This document shows positions 24,879 through 49,431 of a stretch of 64,000 nucleotides of DNA, piece by piece. This DNA comes from Sphingobium sp. 66-54 (GTDB lineage: Bacteria > Pseudomonadota > Alphaproteobacteria > Sphingomonadales > Sphingomonadaceae), in contig MKWI01000024.1 in assembly GCA_001899715.1 (NCBI GenBank), forward strand, positions 62,001-126,000. Reading direction: 5' to 3'. The first letter of the stretch is position 1. Every line of letters begins with the position of its first letter. The notes below the pieces were generated by a model. The model was not told the DNA's origin. It did no database searches and worked only from the letters and a program-made list of their open reading frames with translations. Position numbers and translations under genes: made by a program.

Positions 24879-25532
24879 TCACACGCCTTCCGGCTTCGCT
24901 ATGGTGGTCGTCAGGGCCGCGCTGATCTCATCGAGATGCTGCTGCATTGCCTTCTCCGCGCCAGCCGCATCGCCCGCTGCGATTGCGTCGGTAATGTCGA
25001 CATGCTCCTGCAACGAACGGCGGGCGCGGCCGGCAAGCATGATCGTTCGGTACTGGAATCGGACGATCTGGGACTTGAGGTTGGCCAGCAGGCGGGTTGC
25101 CGTGAGGTTGCCCGAGATACGATGAATCTCGGCATGATAACGGCCGTTTATCGCGGAAAAGGCAAGCAGGTCGCCCTCTCGGAATGCCGTCTGCATCTGC
25201 GCAGTCAGGTCCTTCAGTCTCTGCTTGTCTGCATCGGTCGCCCGTTCCGCCGCCTGCCTTGCGACCAGCCCCTCCAGAGCGCCGCGCGCCTGCATGATTT
25301 CTACTGCTTCCCGATCCGTGACGAGGCGGACGCGAGCCCCGCGATTGGGCTCGATGACAACCAGTCCCTCATGTTCAAGCTTGCCGAGCGCAATACGGAC
25401 ATTCGCGCGATTGGTCCCCAGGAACTCAACGAGATCCTGTTCGATCAGCCGCTCATTGGGCATGAAATGGCCTGAAACGATCGCGTCCCGAAGCCGGTTG
25501 GCAAAATCGTCAGGGCCGGGCCTGGCAAGCAT
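24879..25532 (-). CDS. GntR/FadR-type transcriptional regulator 1
   Basis: A 217-residue regulator. An N-terminal winged helix (residues about 8-72: ANRLRDAIVSGHFMPNERLIEQDLVEFLGTNRANVRIALGKLEHEGLVVIEPNRGARV) is joined to an all-helical FCD ligand domain with AINGRYHAEIHRISGN, whose Asp/His residues usually bind a metal and a small carboxylate ligand. Such proteins repress catabolic genes until a pathway carboxylate binds. GGAGGT lies upstream of the ATG. It sits at one end of the catabolic island, 115 bases beyond the aldehyde dehydrogenase on the same strand, so it may be co-transcribed and autoregulated. Probable targets carry TTGT-N2-ACAA. Confidence 0.9.
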   Translation of the reverse strand: MLARPGPDDFANRLRDAIVSGHFMPNERLIEQDLVEFLGTNRANVRIALGKLEHEGLVVIEPNRGARVRLVTDREAVEIMQARGALEGLVARQAAERATDADKQRLKDLTAQMQTAFREGDLLAFSAINGRYHAEIHRISGNLTATRLLANLKSQIVRFQYRTIMLAGRARRSLQEHVDITDAIAAGDAAGAEKAMQQHLDEISAALTTTIAKPEGV

Positions 25533-25646
25533 CGATGACCTCCATTCCTGCCTGAACCCCGCGCGGAGGGCCGCACGCCGACAGATATCGCATCCGTATA
25601 TTCGACTGCGACGACGATGCGCAACGCGCTCGCTCCGGGCGGCGCA

Positions 25647-27119
25647 TCAACTGGCAAAGGGGTCGGCCGGCATCTCCTCGTTCAGTTCGATAACGACGGT
25701 CTTGGTCTCAAGAAACTGGTCGATCGCCTCAAGGCCGTTTTCGCGTCCGATTCCGGAAAGCTTGAAGCCGCCATAAGGGAGCATCCAGTGGATCGGCCGA
25801 TAGGTATTCACGGAAACGAGGCCGGCCTCGATGCGGCTTGCCATGCGATGCGCGCGCGCGATGTCGGATGTCCATACGCCGGCCACCAGACCGTATTTGG
25901 TATCATTCGCCATGGCGAGGACCTCGTCCTCGGTGTCGAAGGGGATCATCGCGAGGACGGGGCCGAAGACCTCCTCCTGAGCGAGGCGCGAGCGGTTGTC
26001 GACATCGGCAAAGACGGTCGGCTCAACGAAGTAGCCGTTCGGCAGATCGGCAGGGCGTCCACCACCGGCAACCAGTCGCGCGCCTTCTCCCTTGCCGATG
26101 TCGATATAGGAGAGGGTCTTTTCCTGTTGCTCGCGCGAGGTATGGGGGCCGATGTGGCTCGTGCGGTCGAGAGGCATGCCGACGCGGATCCGCCGCGCCC
26201 GCTCCGCCATTGTCGCGACGAACGCCTCATAAGCCGGGCGTTGTACGAAGAGCCGTGAGCCCAGCGAGCAGGTTTGGCCGGTCGAACGAAAGGCTCCATG
26301 CGTGGCGACGATGGCCGCCTTCTCCAGGTCCGCGTCGGCAAAGATGATGTGGGGCGCCTTGCCGCCGCATTCGAAGGTGCAGCGTTTCAGATTGCCGGCG
26401 GCTGCGGCCATGATCTTCTGCGCAGTGCTGTGTTCGCCAGTGAAGCTGATTTTATCGACGCCGGGATGCGCGGCCAAGGCGGCGCCCGCCACTGTGCCGA
26501 AGCCGGTGACGATGTTGACGACCCCGGCCGGAAACCCGGCTTCCTCGATGAGCTTGCCGAGTTCGAGGGCCGTGACCGGCGTCTGCTCGGCGGGTTTGAG
26601 GACGATCGCGCAGCCGGCCGCCAATGCCGGGCCGAGCTTCCAGCCATAGAGGGACATCGGCGAGTTCCAGGGGAGGATCGCGCCGACGACGCCTACGGGC
26701 TCCCGGCGGGTATAGGCGAGCGCGTCGGGTCGGTAAGGGATTTGCTTGCCTTCGATCTTGTCGGCCGCGCCGGCAAAATAGGTGAGCCAGTCGGCAGAGC
26801 GCTGGATCTCGTTCAACGTGTCGCGAACGACCTTTCCGTTGTCGCGGCTCTCCAGCTCGGCGAGCCGCTCCGCATCGCGGCGGATGAGGCCCGCCAGCTT
26901 CAGCATCAGTGCCCCGCGCCGGGTTGGCGTGATCGTGTGGCGCCATGGGCCTGCAAGCGCGTCGCGTGCTGCCGCGACTGCCGCATCTATGTCGTCCGCA
27001 TCCCCTTCGGGCACAATCGCCCACACTTTGTCGAGCGACGGGTCGACGCTCTCGAAGCGCTTGCCAGAACGGGGCAGCACCCACTCGCCACCGATGAACA
27101 GACGATCATATTCCTGCAT
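25647..27119 (-). CDS. NAD(P)+-dependent aldehyde dehydrogenase
   Basis: A 490-residue enzyme oxidising an aldehyde to the acid in the cytoplasm. The catalytic Asn152 lies in LPWNSPM, the general base Glu250 in TFECGGKAP, and the nucleophile Cys284 in GQTCSLGSR. EEVFGPVLAMIPFD and the LSGIGRENG end are also typical. It is closest in style to betaine/vanillin-type dehydrogenases. Its start faces the split TPP decarboxylase across a 12-bp palindrome, so the aldehyde released by that decarboxylase is the likely substrate (inference). AAGGGG precedes the ATG. Confidence 0.92.
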   Translation of the reverse strand: MQEYDRLFIGGEWVLPRSGKRFESVDPSLDKVWAIVPEGDADDIDAAVAAARDALAGPWRHTITPTRRGALMLKLAGLIRRDAERLAELESRDNGKVVRDTLNEIQRSADWLTYFAGAADKIEGKQIPYRPDALAYTRREPVGVVGAILPWNSPMSLYGWKLGPALAAGCAIVLKPAEQTPVTALELGKLIEEAGFPAGVVNIVTGFGTVAGAALAAHPGVDKISFTGEHSTAQKIMAAAAGNLKRCTFECGGKAPHIIFADADLEKAAIVATHGAFRSTGQTCSLGSRLFVQRPAYEAFVATMAERARRIRVGMPLDRTSHIGPHTSREQQEKTLSYIDIGKGEGARLVAGGGRPADLPNGYFVEPTVFADVDNRSRLAQEEVFGPVLAMIPFDTEDEVLAMANDTKYGLVAGVWTSDIARAHRMASRIEAGLVSVNTYRPIHWMLPYGGFKLSGIGRENGLEAIDQFLETKTVVIELNEEMPADPFAS

Positions 27120-27148
27120 GAGAGAAACCCCTTGAAAATGTCATCAAT

Positions 27149-27160
27149 ATTGTTAACAAT
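27149..27160. promoter_or_regulatory. Palindromic operator between ALDH and TPP genes
   Basis: ATTGTTAACAAT is a perfect 12-base palindrome in the divergent promoter region of the dehydrogenase and the TPP decarboxylase. Its core TTGT-TA-ACAA has the half-site geometry of GntR/FadR-type operators and recurs as TTGT-N2-ACAA at 36067 and 47887. Confidence 0.6.
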
Positions 27161-27202
27161 TATGTGAACTGCCGTCAATCGAAGGGGTGGAAAAGGAGCG
27201 TC

Positions 27203-27745
27203 ATGGAGGTACTGGAAAAGGTAGAGGAGGGCGTAAGCGCCTCCAGTTGGGCGGAAATCATGCGCGATTGCTTCAAGCGCAACGGCGTAAAGCTCGTCAC
27301 CTACGTGCCGGACAGGGTCCTCACGCCCCTTATCCAGGCGATTGAAGCTGATCCTTATTTCCAGGCCTTCTCCACCGCGCGGGAAGAAGAGGCGGTGGGC
27401 ATTGTCTGTGGTGCCTGGATGGCCGGCACGAAGGGCGTTGTCCTCATGCAGACGAGTGGGTTTGCCACGCTTCCCAACGTGTTGGCGTCCTTGCCGTGCA
27501 CTTATCAGATTCCCGTCCTGATGGTCATTTCCGAGCGGGGCACGCTAGGCGAGTTCAACCGGGGACAGGCGCTGGTCTGCAAGACGATGCGCCCCATTCT
27601 CGCTTCGATGGGCATGGAGGGGCACACGCTGGCCTCGACCAGAGAACTCGACTTCATCGTCGACCGCACAATCAAGCAGGTCTTCGGAACGCTCGATAGC
27701 GCTGCCCTCATCATCTCGCCGCTCCTCAGCAGCGGCAAATTCTGA
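27203..27745 (+). CDS. TPP-dependent decarboxylase, alpha (Pyr) subunit
   Basis: A 180-residue protein equal to the N-terminal pyrimidine-binding domain of thiamine-diphosphate enzymes, split as in sulfopyruvate decarboxylase ComD. Recognisable are FKRNGVKLVTYVPDRVLTPLI and the catalytic-Glu region FSTAREEEAVGIVCGAWMAG, then MQTSGFATLPNVLASL. With the next gene it would decarboxylate a 2-oxo acid to an aldehyde. Sulfopyruvate and phosphonopyruvate are the known substrates of the family, but neither a sulfonate nor a phosphonate pathway is evident here. AAGGAG precedes ATG 27203; the ATG at 27164 overlaps the promoter. Confidence 0.87.
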   Translation: MEVLEKVEEGVSASSWAEIMRDCFKRNGVKLVTYVPDRVLTPLIQAIEADPYFQAFSTAREEEAVGIVCGAWMAGTKGVVLMQTSGFATLPNVLASLPCTYQIPVLMVISERGTLGEFNRGQALVCKTMRPILASMGMEGHTLASTRELDFIVDRTIKQVFGTLDSAALIISPLLSSGKF

Positions 27746-27756: not shown

Positions 27757-28335
27757 ATGTCCGTTGAAGTGATGAACCGGTATGATGCGACCGTTCGGCT
27801 GCGTGCAAGGCTCGGGGATGAGGATGCCGTCATCGGCGGCATCGGCAACACGAACTTCGATCTCTGGGCTGCGGGTCCGCGTAATCTCAACTTCTACATG
27901 TTGGGGAGCATGGGCCTTGCGGTGCCGATCGCGCTGGGCGTGGCGCTGGCGCAACCCGAGCGGCGCGTGATCGCGCTTGAGGGAGATGGCTCGATCCTGA
28001 TGCAGCTGGGCTGCTTGTCCACTTTGGCCAAGTTGGCGCCGGGCAATCTCGGCACCGTCATTATGGACAATGGTTGCTATCAGATCACCGGTTCGCAGCC
28101 GACCGGCACTGCCTTCGGTACGGATATCGAGGCGGTCGCCAACGCGTGCGGGCTGGAGCATAGCGCGACGGTGGCGACCGAAACCGCGCTCGACGCCGCG
28201 CTCGACCGCTTCTGGCAAATCGCGGCCCCCTGGGTCATCGTCGTGAAGATTGATGGCGAGCCTCCACGCGGCACGACCGAGCGCGATCCGCTCCGCATCC
28301 GCATGCGCTTCATGGATGCGCTCAACCTTGCCTGA
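27757..28335 (+). CDS. TPP-dependent decarboxylase, beta (PP) subunit
   Basis: The 192-residue diphosphate-binding half of the split enzyme, similar to ComE. It has GNTNFDLWAAG, FYMLGSMGLAVPIALGVAL and the TPP/Mg motif EGDGSILMQLGCLSTLAKLAP...MDNGCY (GDG followed 26-27 residues later by N). The active site forms at the interface with the alpha subunit. The two genes are 11 bases apart. The product is cytoplasmic with no targeting signal. The downstream decarboxylase-like gene starts inside its 3' end, so at least four genes form this operon. Confidence 0.88.
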   Translation: MSVEVMNRYDATVRLRARLGDEDAVIGGIGNTNFDLWAAGPRNLNFYMLGSMGLAVPIALGVALAQPERRVIALEGDGSILMQLGCLSTLAKLAPGNLGTVIMDNGCYQITGSQPTGTAFGTDIEAVANACGLEHSATVATETALDAALDRFWQIAAPWVIVVKIDGEPPRGTTERDPLRIRMRFMDALNLA

Positions 28336-29203
28336 CGCTTCTCGCGTCCGTCTCAAGACCGCCCTTGGCTGCTACCCTTATCTTGCGCCGTTGCGCGAGG
28401 GCTCCATCGCTGATCCGTGTGTCGGCTTCGATTTCATCGAGGTCGCGCCGATCCCGAAGGCTTTTGCGCCGATGGTGCGAAGGCTCGAATATGATCTGTC
28501 CGAGATGGCGGTGGTTACTGCGTTGCAGGCCTTTGCCTTCCGCAAACCGATCATCCTGCTGCCGGCCGTCATCGCGTCACGCTTTCAGCGCGGTTGCCTC
28601 ATCCGTCATCGGGATCGGCCACTGGCCGGGCCGCGCGCTTTGGTGGGGAAGACGATCGGTGTGCGCTCCTTCACCCAAACGACCGGAATGTGGGTGCGCG
28701 CCGCCCTTCATGACGATCATGGCCTCCTCGCCGGTGAGATGCGCTGGCGTGTCAGCGAGGGGGCTCATCTGGTCGAATATTCTGCGCCGCCCTTCGTCGA
28801 GTGGGACGATAGCGGCAAGACCTTGCCCGATCAGTTGCGCGACGGCGACATCGCGGCCGCGATCATGGGAGCGGATTTGCCCGAGAGCCAGGAATTCGTA
28901 CCGGTCTTGACCGATCACGCAGCGGCCGACCGCGCCTGGCATGACCGCCATGGGTGGATGCCGATCAATCATATGGTGGCTGTTCGCGCGGATATTGCCG
29001 CCCGGCAGCCCGACGCCGTCCGCGCCGCATGGCGACTGATACGGGAGGCCGCTGCCGGCGCGACCGGCACGCTGTTCGGGACGGACGCGGTTCGTGGGCC
29101 GCTGGTTTATATCGAGGAAGAAGCGCGCCGTCAGGGCTTGCTGCCACATCCGGTCGATGTGGACGCACTGCTGGAGCCCGCTTTCCGGCTGCTGGGAGAG
29201 TGA
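28316..29203 (+). CDS. 4,5-Dihydroxyphthalate decarboxylase-like protein 1
   Basis: About 295 residues with a periplasmic-binding-protein type II fold but no signal peptide. This is the architecture of 4,5-dihydroxyphthalate decarboxylase (Pht5) and of NMT1/THI5-like proteins. Segments such as FRKPIILLPAVIASRFQRGCLIRH and GKTIGVRSFTQTTGMWVRAALHDDHGL parallel FTSRCFRHGCIFV and GKKIGIPEYQMTAPVWIRGMLADEYGV in the next gene, so the two are diverged paralogues. The reaction is unproven; decarboxylation of an aromatic or unsaturated acid is the family precedent. The start is uncertain: ATG 28316 overlaps the previous gene by 20 bases and TTG 28328 by 8. Confidence 0.7.
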   Translation: MRSTLPDASRVRLKTALGCYPYLAPLREGSIADPCVGFDFIEVAPIPKAFAPMVRRLEYDLSEMAVVTALQAFAFRKPIILLPAVIASRFQRGCLIRHRDRPLAGPRALVGKTIGVRSFTQTTGMWVRAALHDDHGLLAGEMRWRVSEGAHLVEYSAPPFVEWDDSGKTLPDQLRDGDIAAAIMGADLPESQEFVPVLTDHAAADRAWHDRHGWMPINHMVAVRADIAARQPDAVRAAWRLIREAAAGATGTLFGTDAVRGPLVYIEEEARRQGLLPHPVDVDALLEPAFRLLGE

Positions 29204-29204: not shown

Positions 29205-30197
29205 GTGAGCAAGATTGATTTGACGCTGGCCTGCATGGATTACGATCGCACGCGCGCGCTGATCGACGGGCGAGTGCGGCCGGAAGGGATCGACCTCAAC
29301 TATCTGAGCCTGCCGGTTGAGGAGATTTTCTTCCGCATGCTCCGTGGCGGCGAGTTCGATGCGGCGGAAATGTCACTTTCCTCTTATTGCATGCTGCTGG
29401 CGAGAGGGACGCCGGAGTTCGTCGCGCTTCCGATCTTTACGTCCCGCTGTTTCCGCCATGGCTGTATTTTCGTTTCGGCAAAGAGTTCGATTGAAACGCC
29501 CCAGCAGTTGGCCGGGAAGAAGATCGGTATACCCGAATATCAGATGACGGCGCCGGTCTGGATCCGCGGCATGTTGGCCGACGAATATGGCGTTGATCCC
29601 GCGTCACCGTCCTATTTCACCGGCGGCCAGGAGGAAACCGGGCGCACCGAAAAGCTGAAACTGGATTTGCCGGCGCGGATCAAGGTCACGCCGATCGGTG
29701 CCACGCAGACCCTATCGCGCATGCTCCTGGAAGGCGAGATCGACGCCCTCTACTCCGCCCGCGTGCCCAGCAGTTTCTATTCGCACCCCGATGAGGTGCG
29801 GCGGCTCTTTTCCGATCCCATGTCGACCGAACAGGACTATTTTCTCCGAACCGACATTTTCCCCATCATGCATGTGGTCGTGCTGCGGCGCTCACTTTAC
29901 GAGCGCCATCGCTGGATCGCGCAATCTCTGTGCAAGGCGTTCGTCGAAGCTCAGCGTCTTGCCTATGCAGCCTTGCTCGTGAACGCTTCGCTCGCGACGA
30001 TGCTCCCTTGGCAGATCATCCAGGTCGAGGATGTCATGGCGCTCATGGATGCGGAGTGGTGGCCCTATGGTGTCGACAGAAATCGCCACGTGATCGAGAC
30101 CTTCCTGCGCTACCATCACGAACAGGGACTCTCGAAGCGCCTGCTGACCCCGGAGGATCTGTTCGCGCCGGAGACCTTCGAAACGTTCAAGATATGA
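29205..30197 (+). CDS. 4,5-Dihydroxyphthalate decarboxylase-like protein 2
   Basis: A 330-residue paralogue of the preceding gene and the closer match to Pht5. It has LACMDYDRTRALIDGRVRPEGIDLNYLSL, EIFFRMLRGGEFDAAEMSLSSY and FTSRCFRHGCIFV, all typical of the decarboxylase. Pht5 removes CO2 from 4,5-dihydroxyphthalate to give protocatechuate, but homologues are spread through many unrelated catabolic loci and no phthalate dioxygenase is present here, so the substrate is open. GTG at 29205 has GGGAGAG upstream and follows the previous stop by one base. It ends two bases before the convergent hydroxyacid dehydrogenase stop. Confidence 0.82.
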   Translation: MSKIDLTLACMDYDRTRALIDGRVRPEGIDLNYLSLPVEEIFFRMLRGGEFDAAEMSLSSYCMLLARGTPEFVALPIFTSRCFRHGCIFVSAKSSIETPQQLAGKKIGIPEYQMTAPVWIRGMLADEYGVDPASPSYFTGGQEETGRTEKLKLDLPARIKVTPIGATQTLSRMLLEGEIDALYSARVPSSFYSHPDEVRRLFSDPMSTEQDYFLRTDIFPIMHVVVLRRSLYERHRWIAQSLCKAFVEAQRLAYAALLVNASLATMLPWQIIQVEDVMALMDAEWWPYGVDRNRHVIETFLRYHHEQGLSKRLLTPEDLFAPETFETFKI

Positions 30198-30199: not shown

Positions 30200-31174
30200 C
30201 TATGGAGCGGCCGCCAAGGCGATGTCTTGCGGATACGGCACCGGCGTCGCCACCGGCTGGCCGGAAAAATGCAGGGTGAGATTGCGCAGCATCAGTTCCT
30301 CGATTGCGGCTCTGGCTTCCACGGCGGCCCCACCCATGTGAGGGGTGAGAATGAGATTGTCCGTGATCTCGCGTAACGCGGGAGGAAGGTGCGGTTCGCC
30401 CTCGAACACGTCTATCGCCGCCCCGGCGATCTTGTTCTCCCGGAGGGCGGCTGCCAGTGCATCGGTCGGCACAATGGAGCCCCGTGCGATATTAATCAGG
30501 AAGCCATTGGGACCCAGCGCCTCCAGAACGGCTGCATCGACGACATGCCTCGTCTCGTCCCCTCCCGGCGCCGCGATGATGAAATAGTCGGACCGGCGGG
30601 CGAGTTCGAGAGGACTATCGACATAGGTATAGGGCACATCGTTTCGCGGGTGGCGATTGTGATAGAAAACCTCCAGGTTGAGGCCCGAAAGGCGTTGGGC
30701 GATCAATAAGCCGATCCGGCCCAAGCCCATGATGCCGAGCCTCTTGCCCACAACCAGCGGGCGAGCTTTGCGCGAGGTTTCCCAGTCGTCGCGCCGGGTG
30801 GCGGCGTCACCGTAGACGATCCCGCGCGTGATGGAGAACATCAGCGCGATCGCATGATCGGCCACCGCGGTTGCGTTGGTGCCGGGGCCGTGTGTCACGG
30901 TGATGCCTCGCTCGCGCGCGGCGCCGACGTCGATCTTGTCGAAACCGGCCGCCATCGTACAGATGATCTCAAGGTTCGGCAGTCCGTGGATCATCTCCCT
31001 CGTCGCGCCCGCCGTGCCGCCCCGGGTGATGATCGCACGGTAGATGGCCGCATCGGCCGGCGGCGTCGTACGACGGGCCGGGTCGGAATAATCATGCAGA
31101 ACATAACCCGCCTCGATCAGCCCCTTGCGCTGCGTATCGGGTATTTTTGCAAGGCACAGAACATCTATTGGCAT
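30200..31174 (-). CDS. D-2-hydroxyacid dehydrogenase 1
   Basis: A 324-residue NAD(P)-dependent dehydrogenase interconverting 2-hydroxy and 2-oxo acids. The nucleotide loop is LGIMGLGRIGLLIAQRL. The catalytic Arg lies in NIARGSIV, Glu in DVFEGEPHLP and His in TPHMGGAA, so the active site is complete. The family includes glyoxylate/hydroxypyruvate reductases. It is the last gene of a five-gene minus-strand operon that begins with the ABC binding protein at 35891, and could supply the 2-oxo acid for the TPP decarboxylase (inference). AAGGA lies 10 bases before ATG. Confidence 0.9.
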   Translation of the reverse strand: MPIDVLCLAKIPDTQRKGLIEAGYVLHDYSDPARRTTPPADAAIYRAIITRGGTAGATREMIHGLPNLEIICTMAAGFDKIDVGAARERGITVTHGPGTNATAVADHAIALMFSITRGIVYGDAATRRDDWETSRKARPLVVGKRLGIMGLGRIGLLIAQRLSGLNLEVFYHNRHPRNDVPYTYVDSPLELARRSDYFIIAAPGGDETRHVVDAAVLEALGPNGFLINIARGSIVPTDALAAALRENKIAGAAIDVFEGEPHLPPALREITDNLILTPHMGGAAVEARAAIEELMLRNLTLHFSGQPVATPVPYPQDIALAAAP

Positions 31175-31216: not shown

Positions 31217-32407
31217 CTAATCGAACGGGACGAAATCATCAGGGTGATAGTCGGTACCGAGACCGGGAGCGTCGGAGACGCGGATCTTGCCGTTCACGGG
31301 CATTGCCAGGCCGGGGACGCGCGACACTTCTTCCAGCGGCACGCCCGCGGGAGAGCGCAGATTATATTCGGCAAGCGTACATTCCGGCATGGTGAGCGAG
31401 AAATGCTGCCCTTCCGGCCGGCCGCCGCCGACGTGGACAAGCGTTTGCAGGCCGGCAGCCTCGGCCAGCGCATAGATTTTCAGCGTCTCCGAAAGGCCCC
31501 CCGTCCAACTGATATCCGGCTGGACGATATCGACCGCGCGCCGGCCGATCAGCTCGGCAAAGGCGTGGCGTCCGCGATGGGTTTCACCCGTTGCCAGCGG
31601 CACCGTTGGCACGGCGTGTTTCAACTGGGCGTGCCCTTCATGGTCCCAGGGCATGAGCGGCTCTTCCAGCCAGGCAAGATTATAGGGCCGGAGCCGCTCG
31701 GCGACGCGGATCGCGAACTCGACATTATAACCCATCACCACGTTGACCATCAGGTCGGCGTCGGGCCCAACCTTTTCACGGGTCTGCGCGACATAATCCT
31801 CCAGCCGGTTGATGCCCGCCGTTCCATCGGTAAGCTGGATGAAATTGCCGATCTTGAAGCGGGTGAAGCCCAGCTCCATGGCCCAGTCGATGTCGCTGGT
31901 CGTGACGTAGGTATCGAGCTCGGGCCGGCTTGGCCCGCCGAGCAAGGTGTATACGGGCACGCCGAGCAACTTGCCCTTGAGGTCCCACAAGGCGATATCC
32001 ACGGGCGCCTGGGCCATGCTCACCAGGCCGGTATGGCCAAGGCGCTGGAAAGAACGCCACATCAGGTCGTTCAGATGCTCGATCGCCATGCAGTCCCGGC
32101 CGATGAGCAGAGGCGCGATATGCTGTTCGATGAACGCCTTGGTATATTCGCCCCAGTGCGAACTGCCGATGCCCCAGCTTCCATCCTCGGCGGTCACGCG
32201 GACGAACATCGTGCGCGTGAAGAAGGCCTCGCCCGGATTGGGCACGAAGGCACCGGTCAGGATGTCCGGATAGCGGTGAATCGGGTGCGGATTGTTCCGT
32301 GTCCGTCCTGGCTTGCCGCCCACCATCGGCAGTGGATGCCGCGGCGGCGTGCTGGGTGCCGGAAACGCGCGGACGAGTTTCAGGCACTCGATTGATTTGA
32401 TTTTCAT
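31217..32407 (-). CDS. Enolase-superfamily dehydratase 1 (rhamnonate dehydratase-like)
   Basis: A 396-residue mandelate racemase/muconate lactonising family member. The capping domain is followed by APVDIALWDLKGKLLGVPVYTLLGG. By alignment in my head with L-rhamnonate dehydratase (DADIMLD...WIEE...GE), the metal ligands should be at 222, 248 and 275. The last two are Glu (WLEEP, TGETH) but position 222 is Asn (DLMVNVVMGYN) where Asp is usual. The enzyme may still bind Mg through Asn, or may have altered chemistry. Relatives dehydrate sugar acids such as rhamnonate. It lies 17 bases after the TauD-like gene in the same operon, with GGAAACC before ATG. Confidence 0.82.
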   Translation of the reverse strand: MKIKSIECLKLVRAFPAPSTPPRHPLPMVGGKPGRTRNNPHPIHRYPDILTGAFVPNPGEAFFTRTMFVRVTAEDGSWGIGSSHWGEYTKAFIEQHIAPLLIGRDCMAIEHLNDLMWRSFQRLGHTGLVSMAQAPVDIALWDLKGKLLGVPVYTLLGGPSRPELDTYVTTSDIDWAMELGFTRFKIGNFIQLTDGTAGINRLEDYVAQTREKVGPDADLMVNVVMGYNVEFAIRVAERLRPYNLAWLEEPLMPWDHEGHAQLKHAVPTVPLATGETHRGRHAFAELIGRRAVDIVQPDISWTGGLSETLKIYALAEAAGLQTLVHVGGGRPEGQHFSLTMPECTLAEYNLRSPAGVPLEEVSRVPGLAMPVNGKIRVSDAPGLGTDYHPDDFVPFD

Positions 32408-35913: not shown

Positions 35914-36090
35914 CAATGGTATACATTGTCGTGGAGGCACGCAAGCCCCCTCATGCGCAGCGGGCCATATGGGTGGTTTGCGATATGGTATATATCATTG
36001 ATATATTTGTATTTTATATCAAAAAACGTATTTTTTCGGTATAGGGGTTGACCAGCCCGGACCTAATTGTGCACAAACGTATACATAAAA
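35914..36090. promoter_or_regulatory. Divergent control region with several palindromes
   Basis: Between the binding-protein and receptor genes are four symmetric sites. CAATG-GTATA-CATTG is at 35914-35928, and GTATAC also recurs at 36079-36084. TTGATATA/TATATCAA (35998-36005, 36015-36022) has a 9-base spacer. TTGTGCACAA (36067-36076) is perfect. TTGACC at 36048-36053 may be a -35 box for the receptor, but no -10 box at normal spacing is convincing. The AT content is far above the surroundings. Multiple operators for one or more GntR-type regulators are the likely reading. Confidence 0.5.
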
Positions 36091-42015: not shown

Positions 42016-43010
42016 CCATACCGATCCTTGAGGTTCGCGACCTCAAAAAATATTATGCCGCTTCGGCCCCGTTTTTCCACCGGGGCGAAAGGCCGGTGGT
42101 GCGCGCGGTTGATGGGGTGAGCTTCACCATCCCGGAAGGGGAGACGTTCGGCCTAATCGGTGAGTCCGGCTGCGGCAAGACGACGACGGTCCGGACGCTG
42201 CTGGGGCTCGAAAAGGTGACATCGGGGACGATCCGTTTTGCCGGTGAGGAGGTGCAAGATGCCGATCAGGCGGGTTGGCGGCGCTACCGCTCGTCGGTCC
42301 AGGCGGTGTTCCAGGATCCCTATAGCTCGCTCAGCCCGCGCATGCGCGTGTGGGAGATTATCGCCGAGCCGCTGATTACGGCTGGCAAGATGAGCAAAGC
42401 CGACATCAAGACAAGGGTCGCGGAGCTGCTCGAAGTCGTTGGGCTGCCGAACGACGCCGGCGAGCGCTTTCCCCATGAATTTTCCGGCGGGCAACGTCAG
42501 CGCGTCGCGATTGCGCGGGGCTTGTCGCCGCAGCCGCGTCTCCTCATTCTCGACGAGCCGGTTTCCGCCCTCGATGTTTCCATTCGGGCGCAGATCCTGA
42601 ACCTGCTCCAGGCGCTTCAGGATAAGTTCGGCTTATCGTACCTGCTGATTTCGCATGACCTCGATATCGTTGCGCATATGTGCCGTAACATTGCGGTCAT
42701 GTATCTTGGCCGCATCGTGGAGACCGGCACGGTTGCGCAGGTACGCGACAATCCGCAGCATCCCTATGCTCAAGCGCTGTTTTCCGCTGTGCTGCCGCCG
42801 CATCCGGACAAGATCAAGCCGCGTATTCGCCTGACCGGGCCGCAACCCTCGCCGTTGAATCCGCCATCGGGTTGCCGTTTTCGCACCCGCTGCCCGGTCG
42901 TGCAGCCGATTTGCGCCGAGATCGAGCCCGCACTCGAACAGACGCGCGCAGGGAGCAGGGCGGCCTGCCTCTTCGCACCCCGCGCCAGCCAGGAGGAAAT
43001 CGACCGATGA
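42012..43010 (+). CDS. ABC importer ATPase, DppF-like
   Basis: The second ATPase of the importer, 332 residues. Walker A is GESGCGKTT, the signature [15 protein letters not shown] is classic, Walker B is [14 protein letters not shown] and the switch His lies in LISHDLDIV. The C-terminal tail [15 protein letters not shown] again has the oligopeptide-type cysteine pattern. The stop overlaps the start of enolase 2 by four bases (ATGA), so importer and catabolic enzyme are translated as one unit, which ties the enzyme to the imported compound. Confidence 0.93.
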
Positions 43011-44206
43011 GGATCACCGATCTCGAAACTCTGCATGTCGACGGGGGCTTTTCGACATTCTCCTACCTGAAGCTTTCCACCGACGCGGGTATCACCGGCT
43101 GGTCGGAGTTCAGCCGATACGAGACGGTGGACAGCATCATCCATTCGCTGCGCAATCAGTTGATCGGGAGCGATCCGACCAACATTGCAGCGCTCGATGC
43201 CCTGTTCCAGGCGATCAGCCGGCGCGGGCCGGGCGGGATTTTTCCCCGCGCGGCGGGGGCGGTCATCAATGCGTGCCTCGATATCAAGGGCCGGGCCGCG
43301 GGGTTGCCGGTCTACGAGCTGCTCGGCGGGGCGATCCGGGATGCCATTCCCGTCTACTGGTCGCACCTCGGCCTGTTTCGCGCGCAATACAGCCAATATT
43401 ATGACGGCAAGGCAATTGATCGCCCGGCGGTGCGCAGCCTGGACGATTTGCAGGACGCGGTCCGTGAAGCCGCGCGTGAAGGCTATCGGGCGATCAAGAG
43501 CAACATCATCAGGTTCGATCCGGCAAAACGCACGACGAGCCTGCGCGGGCTCAACCGGCCGGTTCGGGTCGGCTATCCGGAACTGAATGCTCCCCCGGCA
43601 CTGGTCGCAGCGTTTGCGGAGCAGGTCGCGGCGATGCGCGAGGCGGGCCCCGATCTCGAGATCATGTTCGATCTGAATTACCACTTCCGGCCCGAAGGGA
43701 TGCGGCGCTTCGCCCTGGCGGCGGAGCCTTACGCTCTGGGCTGGCTGGAGGTGGACCTGCCGGACGCGGCGGCGCTTGCCCATCTGCGGCAATCCACGTC
43801 AACGCCGATCGGATCGCTTGAGCAGATCATGGGGGCACGCGGTCTGCGGCCTTTCCTCGATGCGCAGGCCGTCGATGTGGCCATCGTCGATCCGCAATGG
43901 AACGGCGTTTTCGAAGCCGTGAAGATGGCGCGGGTCGCCGACATTTTTGACGTGAACGTCGCTGCGCATTGTTCGGGCGGTCCGCTTGGCGCGTTGATGT
44001 CGGCGCATTTCTGCGCCGCAATCCCCAACCTTCGGATCATGGAGCATGAAGGCGACATGGTCCCTTGGGCGCAGGCCTTGCTAACCCTGCCAAATCGCGT
44101 CGAGAACGGGCATTTCCTGCTTCCCTCCGGCCCAGGCTGGGGATCGGAGATTGATGAGGCCCTGGCCCGGTCCCACCCGGTAAAGAGCAAGCCCGACATC
44201 CGGTAG
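43007..44206 (+). CDS. Enolase-superfamily enzyme 2
   Basis: A 399-residue mandelate racemase/muconate lactonising family enzyme. INACLDIKGRAAGLPVYELLGG marks the domain junction. The catalytic Lys164 lies in YRAIKSNI, and the metal ligands are Asp222 (MFDLNYHF), Glu248 (GWLEVDL) and Glu272 (GSLEQI), so unlike enolase 1 the metal site is complete. His in NVAAHCSGGPLG is the probable second catalytic residue. Likely reactions are dehydration or epimerisation of a hydroxy acid. It is fused to the transporter operon by an ATGA overlap. Its 3' end carries a duplicated 15-base unit including the stop. Confidence 0.87.
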   Translation: MRITDLETLHVDGGFSTFSYLKLSTDAGITGWSEFSRYETVDSIIHSLRNQLIGSDPTNIAALDALFQAISRRGPGGIFPRAAGAVINACLDIKGRAAGLPVYELLGGAIRDAIPVYWSHLGLFRAQYSQYYDGKAIDRPAVRSLDDLQDAVREAAREGYRAIKSNIIRFDPAKRTTSLRGLNRPVRVGYPELNAPPALVAAFAEQVAAMREAGPDLEIMFDLNYHFRPEGMRRFALAAEPYALGWLEVDLPDAAALAHLRQSTSTPIGSLEQIMGARGLRPFLDAQAVDVAIVDPQWNGVFEAVKMARVADIFDVNVAAHCSGGPLGALMSAHFCAAIPNLRIMEHEGDMVPWAQALLTLPNRVENGHFLLPSGPGWGSEIDEALARSHPVKSKPDIR

Positions 44207-44357: not shown

Positions 44358-45338
44358 CTAGTCGATGATGTTCGTTGCCAGGACATGCTGGAGCGGCTGG
44401 TTGGCGCGAAACCGGGCGAGGTTCCGCAAGACCGCCTCGGCCTGACGTTGTGCCGACGTTGGGTCTCCGCCACCGCCGCGATGTGGGGTGATGATGAGAT
44501 TTGGCGCGTCCCAAAGCGTGTGCTCGGCCGGCAGGGGCTCCGGGTCGACCACGTCGAGCCCGGCGCCGAGGATCGTGCCATCGCGCAAGGCTGCTTCGAT
44601 CGCTGCGGTGTCGATGATCGGGCCGCGCCCGATGTTGACCACGAAGCCGTCGGGCTGGAGGGCCGCAAGTTCCTCCGCACCGATCATGCCCCGCGTCTCC
44701 GCATTGGCCGGGGCAGCCACGACGAGAACGCTGGCCTCGGCCAGGGCCTCCTTCAATTGTGTGGAAGGATAGGTCTCGTCCGCCAGTTCCTGGGGTTGTC
44801 CGGAGCGTGTCACGGCGATGACTGTCATGCCGAGCGCCCTGAGGCGCAGGCCGATCTCCTGGCCGATATGGCTGAAGCCGAGAACGACTGCCGTGCGCCC
44901 GAATAACGAGCGCATCGTGCCGGGCCGCGGGCCGCCGCGCACCCGAACCCAGTGGCGATTGCGCTGATTCTCCATGGCATAGGGCAGCCCCCGCGCCAGC
45001 GCGAGAAGCAAGGCGACGGCATGCTCGGCAACGATCGGGGCACTATGGCCGCCGGACCGCGTGACCGTGACGTGGCGGGGCACGCCGATCGTAATCAGCG
45101 GTTCGTTGCCGGCCGAGCTGGAATGATACCAGCGGACCGACCGGCCTCGCGTGCGGACGATCTCGGCGACTTCGGGCGTGTATGCGCTGCCGTTGAAAAT
45201 GAAGACGTCCGCGCCCTCAATGGCTTCGGCCAGCTCTTCGGGGCTTCCGGCTATGACGATCTCCTCGGGGGCGTCGTCGAGTTCGGCGAGCAAGGCATCG
45301 CGATAGGCGAGCACGGTGAAGTACATGACGATACGCAT
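44358..45338 (-). CDS. D-2-hydroxyacid dehydrogenase 2
   Basis: A 326-residue dehydrogenase of the same superfamily as the one at 30200 but clearly diverged. The nucleotide loop is VVLGFSHIGQEIG, with Ser replacing the second Gly of GxGxxG. The catalytic residues are present as Arg in NIGRGPII, Glu in DPEPLP and His in TPHRGGGG. The replaced Gly is tolerated in some family members. The start at 45338 is chosen because AAAGGA lies just upstream and the previous stop is four bases away; a longer frame is a Cys/Ser-rich artefact. It is the third gene of the tcuA-tcuB-like operon. Confidence 0.87.
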   Translation of the reverse strand: MRIVMYFTVLAYRDALLAELDDAPEEIVIAGSPEELAEAIEGADVFIFNGSAYTPEVAEIVRTRGRSVRWYHSSSAGNEPLITIGVPRHVTVTRSGGHSAPIVAEHAVALLLALARGLPYAMENQRNRHWVRVRGGPRPGTMRSLFGRTAVVLGFSHIGQEIGLRLRALGMTVIAVTRSGQPQELADETYPSTQLKEALAEASVLVVAAPANAETRGMIGAEELAALQPDGFVVNIGRGPIIDTAAIEAALRDGTILGAGLDVVDPEPLPAEHTLWDAPNLIITPHRGGGGDPTSAQRQAEAVLRNLARFRANQPLQHVLATNIID

Positions 45339-45342: not shown

Positions 45343-46476
45343 TTATCCTTTGGAGTGCGCATGGAGGCTGGCGGCGCGTTCGCGACGGTCGCGCAGCAAC
45401 GCGAGCGAGCGGTAGAGGCCGTGGACGAACTTGGAATAAGGGAGGAGGAGAAAGAGGGCGAGCACGAAGCCGAGGTGGACGGCAAGCAGCAGGGCCATCG
45501 CCGGCGTCTCACGCAGGCAGAGCAGCAGCAAGCCCGTTGCGGCGACCAGAAACAGGAGGAGAAGCAGCGCGACATCCGCCCCGAGCAGCCGCCGGGCCGT
45601 AGGCGCCTGGTCCGTCACGAATTTCAGCCAGAGCAGGCCGCCCGTGCCGATCATCATGCCTATTCCGCCGGTGGTGCCGAGCAGGACGGGGGCACTGAAG
45701 AAGGGGTAGGGCGCAACCAGGCCCAGAAAATGGTCGTAAATCCAGGCTACGGTGGTTGAAGCGAAACAGAGCATGAAGCCATAGAACATGAAATGATGAA
45801 GGCGCCGGCGAAGTGTCGAAAAGCCCTCATCCTTGTCATTGCAGCCACGGCCGCCCCCGCCGAGATTGTGCAGGGTGAGGATATCGCCCGCCGCGAGCGC
45901 AGCGGGCCGCACGGCCCCCGCGGTGGCTGGGCCGCCTTCACCGGTATGCCGCCAGAACCGGAACGCGCCGATGGTCATTGCAAGAACGGCAAAGAGCGTC
46001 ACACCGCCCGCCAGCCCGGCCATCAGGCCCCATGGTATGACTTGATAGAAGGCGCCTGGTCCGGTTCGTGCGGCGAAGAGATCGGCGGGCGCGTGCGCCA
46101 GCCCGACGCCGATCAGCAGGGCGGCGACGCCCAACGCCGCGATCAGGCTGACGACGACCCCGTTATTCTCGAACAGACGCCCGAGAGGGCGCGGCCAGGC
46201 ATAGGCCGCATAGCTCTCGAACCTCGCCTCGCTCAGTATCTGCGGCAGGTTTACCGCGAATGCATGGGGCGGAATGAACTGGCAGGCGTGATAGCAGCCC
46301 TTGCAATTATGACAGAGATTGGCGAGCTGCCCGATATCCCCCGATTCAAAGAGCGTACGGCGCTGCAACGCGGGGAAGACCGCGCATAGACCCTCGCAAT
46401 ATCGGCAGGCATTGCAGATTGCGAGCTGGCGTGCGGCCTCCGCCTCGATCTCGGTGAGAAGATCATTGATTGGCAT
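45343..46476 (-). CDS. tcuB: TcuB-like iron-sulfur/membrane electron-transfer protein
   Basis: A 377-residue protein related to tricarballylate utilisation protein TcuB (CitB). The N-terminal ferredoxin-like part has two four-Cys clusters, CNACRYCEGLC and CHNCKGCYHAC. The C-terminal two-thirds contains about six membrane helices with several His (HNLGGGGRGC, RRLHHFMFYGF). TcuB reoxidises the FAD of TcuA and passes electrons to the membrane quinone pool. The ATG at 46476, preceded by GGGGAGCAG, overlaps the end of the TcuA-like gene by 14 bases, so the pair is translationally coupled. Confidence 0.88.
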   Translation of the reverse strand: MPINDLLTEIEAEAARQLAICNACRYCEGLCAVFPALQRRTLFESGDIGQLANLCHNCKGCYHACQFIPPHAFAVNLPQILSEARFESYAAYAWPRPLGRLFENNGVVVSLIAALGVAALLIGVGLAHAPADLFAARTGPGAFYQVIPWGLMAGLAGGVTLFAVLAMTIGAFRFWRHTGEGGPATAGAVRPAALAAGDILTLHNLGGGGRGCNDKDEGFSTLRRRLHHFMFYGFMLCFASTTVAWIYDHFLGLVAPYPFFSAPVLLGTTGGIGMMIGTGGLLWLKFVTDQAPTARRLLGADVALLLLLFLVAATGLLLLCLRETPAMALLLAVHLGFVLALFLLLPYSKFVHGLYRSLALLRDRRERAASLHAHSKG

Positions 46477-47854
46477 GGCGTGCTGCTCCCCGTCCCGCAA
46501 TTCGCCCGAAGACAGTGCCGATGGTCATGCCGAAGCCGGCGAGATAACCTTCGCCGAGAATATTGCCGGACATGATCTCGCCGGTGGCGAACAGATTGTC
46601 GAGCGGGCGCCCATTGCCGAGATGAACGGCGGCGTTCTCGTCGACCTTCACGCCCATATAAGTGAAGGTTATGCCCGGCCGCAGCGGATAGGCGTAGAAG
46701 GGCGGCTGGTCGATCCGGCGCGCCCAATGGGTCTTGGGCAATGCCAGCCCATGGGTTGCGCAATCGTCGTGGATGGTGGGATCGAAACTGCCGGGACGGA
46801 CCGCCGCATTATACTCCGCGACGGTCGTGGTGAGCGCTTCGGCGTCGAGGCCCAGCTTGCCGGCAAGTCCGGCGAGAGTTGGCGCTTCGATTGCGGGGAA
46901 AACCGAGGGCATGAACAGTCCCAGCGACTTCGCGTCGAAGATCGACCAGGCCATCTGATCCGGCTGATCGGCGACGAGCTTCCCCCAGATGGCATAGCGC
47001 TTGGGCCAGAAGTCCTCGCCCTCGTCGTAAAAACGCTTCGCCTCGCGGTTGACCACGATCGAGAAGGGAATGCAGTCGAGCCTGGTGACGATGCCGCCAT
47101 CGAAGCGGGGGGAGCGTGCGTCGATGGCAACTGCGTGGCAACCGGAGGGATCGCCTTCGGTCGCGACGCCCTGGTCCATCAGGTTCCTGAGGACGCGCCC
47201 TCGCGCATATTCTGTGCCGCGAATGCAGAAATTATCGGCCCGCGCTCCCCAATTGGCCTTGAGCCAGTCGATATTGGCCTGGAAGCCACCTGCCGCGGCG
47301 ATGTAGCTTTTCGCCTTCACAGTGGCCGGGAACCCGCGATGGCTGAACCGAATTTCCCGAACCCGGCCGTTCTCGATCGGCATTTCGCGGACCTCGGAAT
47401 CGTAGATCAGTTCAACGCCGAGCCGCTGTGCCGCCGCGTAAAGGACATTGAGATGGGCCTTGCCGCCGCCGAGGAAGAACAGGTTGGTGCGTGAGAGGCT
47501 GAGCGTTCCGGTCAGCGAAGGCTGAAAACGGCAGCCGAGACGGACAAGCCAGGGGATGGCGTCGATGCTTCCCCGGATCGCGATCCGCGCAAGATGTTCG
47601 TTGGTCTTGCCCTTGGTGACGAAAAGCAGGTCCCGCCAATATTCCTCCTCATCATAGGCGCCAACCAGCGTTTCCACCGGGCCGCTATGCATAGCGCGCA
47701 GGTTTCGCGTGTGGCGACTGTTGCCGCCGCGCAGATATTTGGGGGCGTGCTCAATGACCAGTACCGACGCGCCGGCCTGCCGGGCAGTGATTGCCGCGCA
47801 CATGGCGGCGTTCCCCCCTCCCACGACGGCAACGTCGAAATCCCGCGAAAACAA
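46463..47854 (-). CDS. tcuA: TcuA-like FAD-dependent dehydrogenase
   Basis: A 463-residue flavoprotein of the fumarate-reductase fold. VAVVGGGNAAMCAAITARQAG (Rossmann), YLRGGNSRHTRNLRAMH and FFLGGGKAHLNVLYAAAQRLG match tricarballylate dehydrogenase TcuA of Salmonella, which oxidises tricarballylate to cis-aconitate. The ending GEIMSGNILGEGYLAGFGMTIGTVFGRIAG is the usual FAD-binding C-terminus. A related substituted succinate is an alternative substrate. I chose TTG 47854 (GGGGGCG upstream) because the ATG at 47914 would place the operator-like site 47887-47896 inside the gene. Confidence 0.85.
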   Translation of the reverse strand: MFSRDFDVAVVGGGNAAMCAAITARQAGASVLVIEHAPKYLRGGNSRHTRNLRAMHSGPVETLVGAYDEEEYWRDLLFVTKGKTNEHLARIAIRGSIDAIPWLVRLGCRFQPSLTGTLSLSRTNLFFLGGGKAHLNVLYAAAQRLGVELIYDSEVREMPIENGRVREIRFSHRGFPATVKAKSYIAAAGGFQANIDWLKANWGARADNFCIRGTEYARGRVLRNLMDQGVATEGDPSGCHAVAIDARSPRFDGGIVTRLDCIPFSIVVNREAKRFYDEGEDFWPKRYAIWGKLVADQPDQMAWSIFDAKSLGLFMPSVFPAIEAPTLAGLAGKLGLDAEALTTTVAEYNAAVRPGSFDPTIHDDCATHGLALPKTHWARRIDQPPFYAYPLRPGITFTYMGVKVDENAAVHLGNGRPLDNLFATGEIMSGNILGEGYLAGFGMTIGTVFGRIAGRGAARHANQ

Positions 47855-47886
47855 GATAGCGCCCCCACAAGGTGTTATGTATGCAC

Positions 47887-47896
47887 TTGTACACAA
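47887..47896. promoter_or_regulatory. Operator-like TTGTACACAA before tcuA
   Basis: TTGT-AC-ACAA lies 33 bases upstream of the chosen tcuA start and downstream of the GntR 2 stop codon. It matches the TTGT-N2-ACAA pattern at 27150 and 36067. Confidence 0.45.
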
Positions 47897-47941
47897 TGCG
47901 GGATTGCAGAGCAATGCCTACGATGCAGGCACTGCGAATTT

Positions 47942-48598
47942 TCAGACGCTCTGGGAGTTCTGGATGCCGAGCCTGACCTTGAAAGCCCGGCGGATGTGCG
48001 TGCGAGCGGCGGCTTCGGCCGCATCGGGATCACGCGCGGCAATCGCTTTCAGTGTCGCTTCATGTTCGTCGATCGAAACGCTGCCTCGGTCGGCCACGGA
48101 GAGCGTCACACCGGCCATGAGCATCAAGGTCGTGCGCATGTTCGCCAGAGAACGGATCAGGAAGCGATTGCGCGAGGCATTGTAGATCTGCTGATGGAAC
48201 AGCTTGTTGCGCTTCACGAGTTCCTGGGGCTGGTCGTACAACGTCCGGTCGGTTGCGATCATTTCATGCAGAACTTCGATTTCGGTCGGCGTGGCATGGA
48301 TCGCCGCGAGGCGCGCGGCGGCGCCTTCCAGCAGTTCACGCATGAAATAAAGTTCCGTCACCGCAGTATAGTCGAGTTGCGACACCACCGCGCCCAGATG
48401 CGCCTGATGCGCGACGAGGCCCTCGGTCTCAAGCTGTTTCAGAGCCTCGCGTACGGGTGTGCGACTCAAACCCAACTGGGCGGCAAGCTCAGCTTCGCGC
48501 AGGCGGCTGCCGGGGCGCAGCATCCCGTTTTCCATTTGCGCGAGGATGAGTTGGTAGGCGCTCGCGCCTGAGAGTTCGTTCTTTTTCGCTATCGTCAT
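47942..48598 (-). CDS. GntR/FadR-type transcriptional regulator 2
   Basis: A 218-residue regulator. The winged helix SAYQLILAQMENGMLRPGSRLREAELAAQLGLSRTPVREALKQLETEGLV is a textbook GntR domain, followed by an FCD domain with LYFMRELLEGAAARLAAIHA and KRNKLFHQQIYNAS. Ligands of this class are usually carboxylates from the controlled pathway. It differs from regulator 1 (typical RTPVREAL here, NRANVRIAL there), so they are not recent duplicates. It is encoded upstream of tcuA on the same strand and divergent from the aldolase-like gene. Confidence 0.92.
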   Translation of the reverse strand: MTIAKKNELSGASAYQLILAQMENGMLRPGSRLREAELAAQLGLSRTPVREALKQLETEGLVAHQAHLGAVVSQLDYTAVTELYFMRELLEGAAARLAAIHATPTEIEVLHEMIATDRTLYDQPQELVKRNKLFHQQIYNASRNRFLIRSLANMRTTLMLMAGVTLSVADRGSVSIDEHEATLKAIAARDPDAAEAAARTHIRRAFKVRLGIQNSQSV

Positions 48599-48654
48599 CA
48601 GTTGCTCGCACCCTTCGCCTTTTGTATGCTAGTGTATTCAATTAGGAACACATT

Positions 48655-49431
48655 GTGCCCAATTACAATACCCGCATCGCGTCGATCGAGCCTAATGTCT
48701 CCGCCGAAGAGTGGAAAGCCAGAGTCGATCTGGCTGCCTTCTACCGGCTTGTCGACTGCTGGGGCATGTCGGATATGATTGCGAATCATATTTCCGTCCG
48801 CGTGCCTGGGGAGCCCGGCCATTTCCTCATCAACGCCTATGGCTACCTCTATGAGGAGATCACGGCCTCCAGCCTGATCAAGATCGACCTTGACGGCAAC
48901 ATCATCTGGAAGCCCGATTTCGACTACGGCATCAATCGCGCGGGATTCGTCATTCACGCCGCCGTCCATCGGGCGCGCGAGGACGCCCATTGTGTCGTCC
49001 ACACGCGTACGCAGGCTGGCATGGCGGTGTCGGCGCTGCGCTGTGGATTGCTCCCATTGACGCAAATGGCCATGCGCTTCGCCAGGGTCGCTTATCACGA
49101 TTATGAGGGTGTGGCGGTCAATCTCGATGAGCAGGAGCGCTTCGTCCGCGACCTGGGGGCCTGCGATCTCATGATCCTTCGCAACCACGGGCTGCTTGCT
49201 GTCGGGGCGTCGATCCCGGAAACCTTCGATACGATCCGGCGCGCGGAACTGGCGTGCGCAACCCAATTGCGGGCGATGGCTACGGGAGCGGAGCTGATTA
49301 TTCCATCAGAAGACGTTCAACAGGGGACTGCGCGGCTCTATCAGCCGGATGTTCGTCGGCCCTATGGCCTATTGGAATGGCCGGCCCTGTTGCGCAAACT
49401 GGATCGCCTCGATCCGTCCTTCCGGCATTGA
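48655..49431 (+). CDS. Class II aldolase/adducin-like protein
   Basis: A 258-residue protein of the class II aldolase/adducin fold (ANHISVRVPG, FLINAYGYLYEEITASSLIKID, RNHGLLAVG). The zinc site of aldolases such as fuculose-phosphate aldolase uses HxH plus a later His. Here residues 116-118 read HTR, so the second ligand is Arg118, and His178 in NHG is present. This could mean a non-catalytic or altered role, for instance a decarboxylase or binding function. GTG at 48655 has AGGAAC upstream. It faces GntR 2 across 56 bases. Confidence 0.82.
   Translation: MPNYNTRIASIEPNVSAEEWKARVDLAAFYRLVDCWGMSDMIANHISVRVPGEPGHFLINAYGYLYEEITASSLIKIDLDGNIIWKPDFDYGINRAGFVIHAAVHRAREDAHCVVHTRTQAGMAVSALRCGLLPLTQMAMRFARVAYHDYEGVAVNLDEQERFVRDLGACDLMILRNHGLLAVGASIPETFDTIRRAELACATQLRAMATGAELIIPSEDVQQGTARLYQPDVRRPYGLLEWPALLRKLDRLDPSFRH

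Follow-up and report, generated by a model that had tools for sequence, protein, structure and literature searches.

Do the uptake and breakdown genes crowded together at positions 24879-49431 of this stretch of DNA from Sphingobium sp. 66-54 serve one pathway, and if so, for what kind of compound? The stretch, which we call the window, is 64,000 nucleotides long and comes from a genome of 4.0 Mb; positions refer to it unless another sequence is named. Our answer, to which we give a probability of roughly one half, is that these genes form a probably acquired, single-regulon catabolic island for an imported, carboxylate-rich and probably aryl-containing compound. Searches with Pfam and NCBIfam profiles, supported by a codon-usage gene caller trained on the genes of the window, identify 22 genes in the island, including every protein class named in an earlier, sequence-only reading of this DNA. 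The gene limits agree largely with those of the caller; the starts of TPPa and TcuA were taken from codon scoring.

The genes fall into six strand-runs: a regulator and an aldehyde dehydrogenase (GntR1, ALDH; minus strand); the two halves of a thiamine pyrophosphate (TPP) enzyme and two Pht5-family proteins (TPPa, TPPb, Pht5a, Pht5b; plus); a family 5 solute-binding protein, two TauD-family proteins, an enolase-superfamily enzyme and a D-2-hydroxyacid dehydrogenase (SBP5, TauD2, TauD1, MLE1, DHHA1; minus); a TonB-dependent receptor, a Dpp-like ATP-binding cassette (ABC) transporter and a second enolase-superfamily enzyme (TBDR, DppC, DppB, DppD, DppF, MLE2; plus); a second regulator, two tricarballylate-utilisation proteins and a second dehydrogenase (GntR2, TcuA, TcuB, DHHA2; minus); and a class II aldolase (AldII; plus). 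Transport and catabolic genes are mixed within runs, both in SBP5-TauD2-TauD1-MLE1-DHHA1 and in TBDR-Dpp-MLE2. The block had been described as bounded by two GntR regulators, which is inexact, since AldII (48655-49431) lies beyond GntR2 at the right-hand end.

The evidence that ties these runs together is a palindrome. ALDH and TPPa are separated by 83 bases, in which we spotted ATTGTTAACAAT by eye; this 12-base form has a single occurrence in the window, even when up to two mismatches are allowed. The relaxed form TTGTnnACAA occurs exactly three times in the 64 kb, each time as a predicted operator between island genes: TTGTTAACAA between ALDH and TPPa (27150-27159), TTGTGCACAA between SBP5 and TBDR (36067-36076), and TTGTACACAA between GntR2 and the likely start of TcuA (47887-47896). 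The expectation for the window is 0.15, and none of 100 shuffles reached three. For nine intergenic stretches within the island (839 bases), shuffling with dinucleotides preserved put the word in three stretches in 0/20,000 shuffles and in two stretches in 2. Because the relaxed form was picked after seeing the ALDH/TPPa site, we also ran a control for any palindrome: no single 4-2-4 palindrome was common to three stretches in 3,000 shuffles, the 4-2-4 form itself being likewise a choice made after the fact.

Genome-wide, WTTGTnnACAA has 15 distinct sites, 3 of them in the island, and a reversed control pattern gave 4 matches versus 23. By our gene calls, the 12 outside sites comprise eight inside genes, three between convergent genes and one between divergent genes, the products flanking the last having no Pfam match. 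Promoter-like positions are, by the same calls, 3/3 in the island versus 1/12 outside (one-sided Fisher 0.009). The shared palindrome strengthens the idea of a single dedicated pathway, as the sequence-only reading had proposed for this block. It predicts at least three units under one regulator, which would cover the uptake system, both dioxygenases, the decarboxylases and TcuAB. The protein that binds it would be one of the two FCD-type regulators, GntR1 (24879-25532, minus; Pfam GntR and FCD above cut-off) or GntR2 (47942-48598, minus; profile search), which are 34% identical. GntR1, on the same strand after ALDH, may use the ALDH promoter.

The island encodes only one transport route. It consists of TBDR (36127-39156, plus), a 1009-residue receptor with a Pfam Plug match whose best paralogues in its own genome are 38% identical; SBP5 (34335-35891, minus; Pfam SBP_bac_5 225 bits), with a twin-arginine motif, TRRAMIL, read by eye near its N-terminus; and, from profile searches, the DppC-like (39214-40104) and DppB-like (40115-41032) permeases and the DppD-like (41029-42015) and DppF-like (42012-43010) ATPases, all on the plus strand. 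The import of a bulky compound intact, as claimed earlier, is plausible. DdvT of Sphingobium sp. SYK-6 is reported to serve TonB-dependent uptake of a lignin-derived biphenyl (PMC6874591), a system in which, as we propose for the island, a TonB receptor feeds aromatic catabolism; a review of phthalate ester uptake considers both TonB and ABC transport as candidate ways of entry (PMC10973024).

The same proteins could instead take up and recycle a carboxylate metallophore or an opine, which TBDR and an ABC importer of the Nik/Opp2 type would bring in and the enzymes would dismantle. TBDR fits profiles of haem and siderophore receptors, the best scores of the permeases are with the Opp2B and Opp2C nickel permeases, and SBP5 resembles binders of agrocinopine, glutathione and nickel. 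However, all of these NCBIfam scores lie below their cut-offs, receptors of the TBDR kind are many in the genome itself (37 match rows, some being parts of one receptor), and the enzyme set is catabolic, a phthalate-type decarboxylase included. We regard metallophore or opine uptake as very unlikely. The SBP5/TBDR gap (35915-36090) also holds AT-rich palindromes and two copies of GTATACAT, and a TATATAATAT-type stretch is present in the corresponding GntR/SBP5 gaps of Roseomonas and Ponticoccus.

That phthalate-type decarboxylase is the enzyme with the closest known kin. Pht5b (29205-30197, plus) is 65-68% identical to the Pht5 of sphingomonad phthalate operons and matches 9jp7, deposited as a 4,5-dihydroxyphthalate decarboxylase, with 276 bits over its whole length. 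Its nearest named relatives belong to Sphingobium, Novosphingobium and Porphyrobacter, and proteins at 65-68% occur in eight other genomes of the family (298 searched, its own included). 4,5-Dihydroxyphthalate decarboxylase is the Pht5-family step of the phthalate 4,5-dihydroxylation pathway (PMC13040137). In a FastTree phylogeny, Pht5b groups with the phthalate-operon enzymes (support 0.991) and is drawn with a long branch, outside all nine operon sequences. By kinship, then, it is of the Pht5-family 4,5-dihydroxyphthalate decarboxylase type, with that activity putative. Pht5a (28328-29203, plus) is a distant member: it has no Pfam or NCBIfam match, is placed through its solved relative 9jp7 (72 bits), is 24% identical to Pht5b and has 44% relatives in Paraburkholderia; a relative in Roseomonas adjoins aromatic ring-cleavage genes.

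The setting of Pht5b differs from that of its relatives. In all nine contexts read (seven family genomes, pCAR3 and Sphingobium CAP-1), a Gfo/Idh dehydrogenase and a Rieske oxygenase adjoin Pht5, although these contexts are not all independent, since genes in two of the genomes (L138 and L142) are identical or nearly identical to the named plasmids; L138, of the same genus, carries pCAR3-type genes. A Rieske match also lies near the next relatives, those of Caballeronia NK8 (62%) and Sinorhizobium mexicanum (58%), and in S. mexicanum no Gfo/Idh match accompanies it. In contrast to the pht operon (for example that of plasmid pCAR3, Novosphingobium sp. KA1), profile searches of the 22 island genes detect neither a Rieske phthalate dioxygenase nor a Gfo/Idh-type dihydrodiol dehydrogenase. 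A PF00848 search of the genome itself gave two matches, and the stretches around them hold no match to the pCAR3 Rieske protein above 70 bits; the pCAR3-type phthalate dioxygenase is PF19301, a type that PF00848 does not cover. The genome also has five LigB-family matches above cut-off. As a side observation, several sphingomonad phthalate operons (L136, L138, L139, L142, L040, L041) contain a NadC-like gene, which may be a resistance copy because phthalate resembles quinolinate.

Both dioxygenase-family proteins carry the HxD...H motif and score above the Pfam cut-off: TauD1 (32425-33288, minus) has H100-x-D and H246, and TauD2 (33329-34324, minus; Pfam TauD 98.5 bits) has H148-x-D and H280. 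TauD2 is divergent; its best genome relatives are at 42-43%, FrbJ and 7n7v match it among solved structures at 83-84 bits, and no relative of the TauD pair above 43% identity appeared where sought. TauD1 belongs to the 2-oxoglutarate dioxygenase family, and the solved structures nearest to it are variants of RdpA, one at 175 bits, and the taurine dioxygenase TauD, at 153 bits. These scores do not separate an RdpA reading from a TauD reading, and we name neither taurine nor a herbicide as the substrate. A second TauD2-type protein (38%; G000:C33:7621-8454) and a second MLE2-type enzyme (42%; G000:C15:47780-48973) are encoded in the same genome outside the island. In Caballeronia sp. NK8 plasmid pNK81 (L077 15031-22264), a TauD1-like gene adjoins DppBCDF and SBP5 genes.

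The kinship of TauD1 to RdpA raises the idea that the island breaks down a man-made pollutant, either an aryl ether or a phthalate, and that TauD1 works there as the herbicide dioxygenase RdpA does. Such a pathway would suit the place of RdpA variants as the closest solved structures, the membership of Pht5b among phthalate-operon enzymes, and the low GC and patchy distribution of the island. But the two TauD1 scores leave RdpA and taurine dioxygenase side by side, the island lacks two enzymes of the phthalate pathway, its ring dioxygenase and its dihydrodiol dehydrogenase, and the hydroxy-acid branch would be superfluous for compounds of this kind. We give a pollutant pathway little credence.

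The remaining enzymes point to carboxylate chemistry, in line with the sequence-only reading. TPPa (27203-27745, plus; its longest frame begins at 27164) is an N-terminal TPP-enzyme half, sulfopyruvate decarboxylase alpha-like, and TPPb (27757-28335, plus) is the C-terminal half, passing NF004813/PRK06163 with 270 bits (cut-off 240). The pair stays under the cut-offs for sulfopyruvate and phosphonopyruvate decarboxylases (TIGR03845, 103.6 of 147.95 bits for TPPa; TIGR03846, 145.7 of 221.5; TIGR03297, 129.4 of 312.5 for TPPb). ALDH (25647-27119, minus) has 577 bits with Pfam Aldedh, and no NCBIfam family reaches its cut-off among the 25 of 41 listed. MLE1 (31217-32407, minus; Pfam MR_MLE; 2oz3 182 bits) is L-rhamnonate-dehydratase-like but scores 228 bits with NF011968, under the cut-off of 393. 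It has Asn where two aligned rhamnonate-dehydratase-type chains have Asp, a position that we take to be the first metal ligand. Sulfopyruvate, phosphonopyruvate and rhamnonate were rejected as named substrates, the relevant NCBIfam cut-offs not being reached. The solved chain nearest to MLE2 (43007-44206, plus; profile search) is 2oo6, deposited as a putative epimerase. DHHA1 (30200-31174, minus; Pfam) and DHHA2 (44358-45338, minus; profile searches) are D-2-hydroxyacid dehydrogenases.

TcuA (46463-47854, minus; start from codon scoring), of the FAD-dependent tricarballylate-dehydrogenase family, and TcuB (45343-46476, minus), of the tricarballylate-utilisation 4Fe-4S protein family, both exceed curated cut-offs (NF006130, 674 versus 369 bits; TIGR02484, 451 versus 246.6), as does AldII (plus), of the class II aldolase/adducin family PRK07044 (NF005451, 330 versus 207). 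In Salmonella, according to a study cited in PMC10468695, TcuA converts tricarballylate to cis-aconitate. The island resembles the TcuABC system of Salmonella (PMC10468695) in TcuA and TcuB but differs in having no TcuC-like gene (profile searches of the 22 genes found no secondary transporter) and in joining TcuAB to an aldolase and a hydroxyacid dehydrogenase, an arrangement shared with Variovorax RA8 and two further genomes (G705 and G748).

Parts of the island recur elsewhere as modules. TPPa-TPPb with an adjacent ALDH is present in 6/8 contexts that we selected and read. Three of these are plasmids (from Variovorax, Sphingobium TomMM15 and Sinorhizobium RAC02) and three are genomes; Methylobacterium and Priestia are the two without it. 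Some of these sets are annotated as sulfopyruvate or phosphonopyruvate decarboxylases; they share both halves and the neighbouring ALDH with ours, but in three of them identity to the island proteins is 31-35% for TPPa, 34-41% for TPPb and 48-50% for ALDH, and the island pair lies below the sulfopyruvate decarboxylase cut-offs. The TcuA-TcuB-AldII-DHHA set occurs on plasmid 2 of Variovorax RA8 (AldII 59%, TcuA 57%, TcuB 51%, DHHA 39% identical) and in G705 and G748. In these two genomes of the phylum, the TcuA-TcuB-aldolase-dehydrogenase runs (L131, L132) are interspersed with TctC receptor genes, hinting at a tricarboxylate-like substrate for this module. Among plasmid TcuAB contexts read, one of three has both AldII and DHHA. 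A GntR-SBP5-MLE2-DppDFBC-DHHA cassette was found in two plasmid contexts read, from Roseomonas haemaphysalidis and Ponticoccus alexandrii, out of 161 records with a match. It has the same families in one run, with an MLE 42% identical, but the stretches examined contain neither a TonB receptor gene nor any TauD or Tcu gene.

The whole set is another matter. The sequence-only reading had asked whether it is conserved as a unit, and our searches returned no second copy in the family, genus, phylum or plasmid sets. They covered, each with the genome itself included, 61 relatives' genomes with TauD2, 298 family genomes with Pht5b, 397 family genomes with a fused TPPa-TPPb-TauD2 query (scoring was limited to the top two candidates of each genome), 94 genus and 349 phylum genomes with SBP5, and 398 and 349 phylum genomes with AldII and MLE2; the family and phylum sets are samples, and the gene neighbourhood was read for few of the matches listed. 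A search of genome contigs for exact SBP5 peptide patterns gave two relatives, at 27% and 23%. Island DNA matched 13 plasmid records, with at most 3% covered, and matches of eight island proteins to plasmids were all below 60% identity save Pht5b (67%). In the open-licence full text of PubMed Central, searches for several of these enzyme names together returned no paper, which does not imply absence from print.

Several of these results, and some from the promoter analysis, weigh against a single pathway under a single regulator. The modules recur singly and the whole was not found, so that a mosaic origin weakens the one-pathway idea, and conservation lends it no support. Among seven contexts selected for similarity to AldII, two contain TcuAB and three a DHHA2-like gene. 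Of seven genome contexts read around relatives of MLE2, the genome's own paralogue being one of these, none has an SBP5 or permease match; an isolated ABC ATPase match occurs in two, and in one a DHHA adjoins MLE2. No TTGTnnACAA precedes AldII, and none is found in eight promoter stretches of related modules. The site at 47887 lies inside the longest TcuA frame, which extends to 47914, yet upstream of the codon-scored start, and it would be internal if GntR2 and TcuA form one transcript. An outside site called genic, C31:45689, lies 31 bases within a called start, a position like that of the TcuA site under its longest frame, so that the promoter-like count could be 2/12. As for the aromatic part of the reading, no ring-hydroxylating oxygenase was detected by profile searches among the 22 genes, and Pht5 relatives in Arthrobacter (53%) and Cupriavidus (46%) adjoin genes annotated as gentisate- or homogentisate-type, so that 4,5-dihydroxyphthalate is no more than a candidate substrate of Pht5b.

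These observations could also describe a patchwork of separate cassettes for unrelated carboxylic acids (tricarboxylate, aldonate-like, 2-oxo and phthalate-type), assembled by repeated capture and perhaps responding to a common signal. The kin of the modules do live in different bacteria and in different company, and the island has two regulators. A weaker motif, TGTATRC, has 4/7 of its window copies in these island regions, ahead of some units, and in Paracoccus yeei a TGTATACA palindrome stands ahead of the GntR2-like gene of a TcuAB unit; together they make a second operator type possible. On the other hand, one palindrome, controlled for chance, precedes three units, the island has a single transport route, and its runs combine genes for transport with genes for catabolism. 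We consider a patchwork possible, if somewhat unlikely, and retain a single-regulon island as our reading.

That the island was acquired, also hinted at earlier, is likely, judging by its deviating composition, by the absence of a close SBP5 relative from the other genus genomes searched and by the absence of island genes beside the conserved right flank in relatives. Its GC content is 62.3%, compared with 66.1% in the left flank and 66.4% in the right; the sequence-only reading was correct that GC is lower inside, but the hand-counted lines on which it relied exaggerate the contrast. Third-position GC is 76.4% in island genes versus 80.8% in seven flanking genes, calculated with limits one codon off for TcuA and the gene at 49525. 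In the genus set, SBP5 has three matches at E 1e-20 besides its own, at 25-29% identity, so that none of the 93 other genomes exceeds 29%; in the phylum set, there is one other match at E 1e-50, at 31%, ahead of DppBCDF genes (46-49%).

Two adjoining genes on the minus strand (49525-52586), one with a DUF4139 match below cut-off, lie to the right of the island. The gene at 51087-52586 is matched in 24/41 genomes, and the pair stays side by side in 8/8 relatives read. Beside it, in the stretches of 13-20 kb from these eight relatives (two ended by contig ends), no island or left-flank gene has a match at E 1e-15. An insertion is likely; given that the left flank is missing from these stretches as well, they do not establish a clean empty site. 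No integrase was found among the genes scanned, which are part of those in the window. At the left edge of the island is an Xre-RES toxin-antitoxin pair (23751-24867, plus), composed of an Xre-like helix-turn-helix protein with Xre_MbcA_ParS_C and a RES-domain protein; its third-position GC is likewise low, at 70-71%, and PADLOC gives no match for it.

How might the island work? We infer regulator binding, the substrate, the reactions and their order, with the import, cleavage, oxidation, decarboxylation and TcuAB steps drawn from family knowledge. A regulator of the GntR/FCD kind would sit on TTGTnnACAA ahead of three units until the substrate or a breakdown product releases it. A carboxylate-rich, probably aryl-containing compound would cross the outer membrane through the TonB receptor and then be carried inward by SBP5 and the Dpp-like ABC complex. 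The two TauD-type dioxygenases would oxidise it at an ether, nitrogen or sulphur link, or hydroxylate it, yielding two kinds of fragment. The MLE enzymes and the D-hydroxyacid dehydrogenases would turn hydroxy-acid fragments into 2-oxo acids, to be decarboxylated by TPPa and TPPb and oxidised by ALDH. A tri- or dicarboxylate-like fragment would be handled by a second module made up of TcuAB, AldII and DHHA2, with TcuAB desaturating a vicinal carboxylate. Pht5b, perhaps with Pht5a, would decarboxylate a hydroxy-phthalate-like aromatic fragment to a catechol-type acid, whose ring might be opened by LigB-family enzymes encoded elsewhere in the genome.

A more specific version, which we offer tentatively and think doubtful, is that an aryl-polycarboxylate is imported whole through the TonB receptor and the Dpp-type ABC transporter and cut by the pair of 2-oxoglutarate dioxygenases, so that a hydroxy-phthalate-type intermediate would arise without a ring-hydroxylating dioxygenase. 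Pht5 would then have been recruited into a new route, in one regulon with a TcuAB-aldolase branch.

The island is a compact system for uptake and breakdown with a predicted operator; its parts are of known kinds, and their combination was not found elsewhere. Because it is compact and its operator is predicted, simple induction tests could find the substrate. The island could also give functions to families that bear only generic names: the 2oo6-type enolase-superfamily enzyme, the PRK06163 split decarboxylase, the PRK07044 aldolase found in company with TcuAB, and a Pht5 enzyme outside a phthalate operon.

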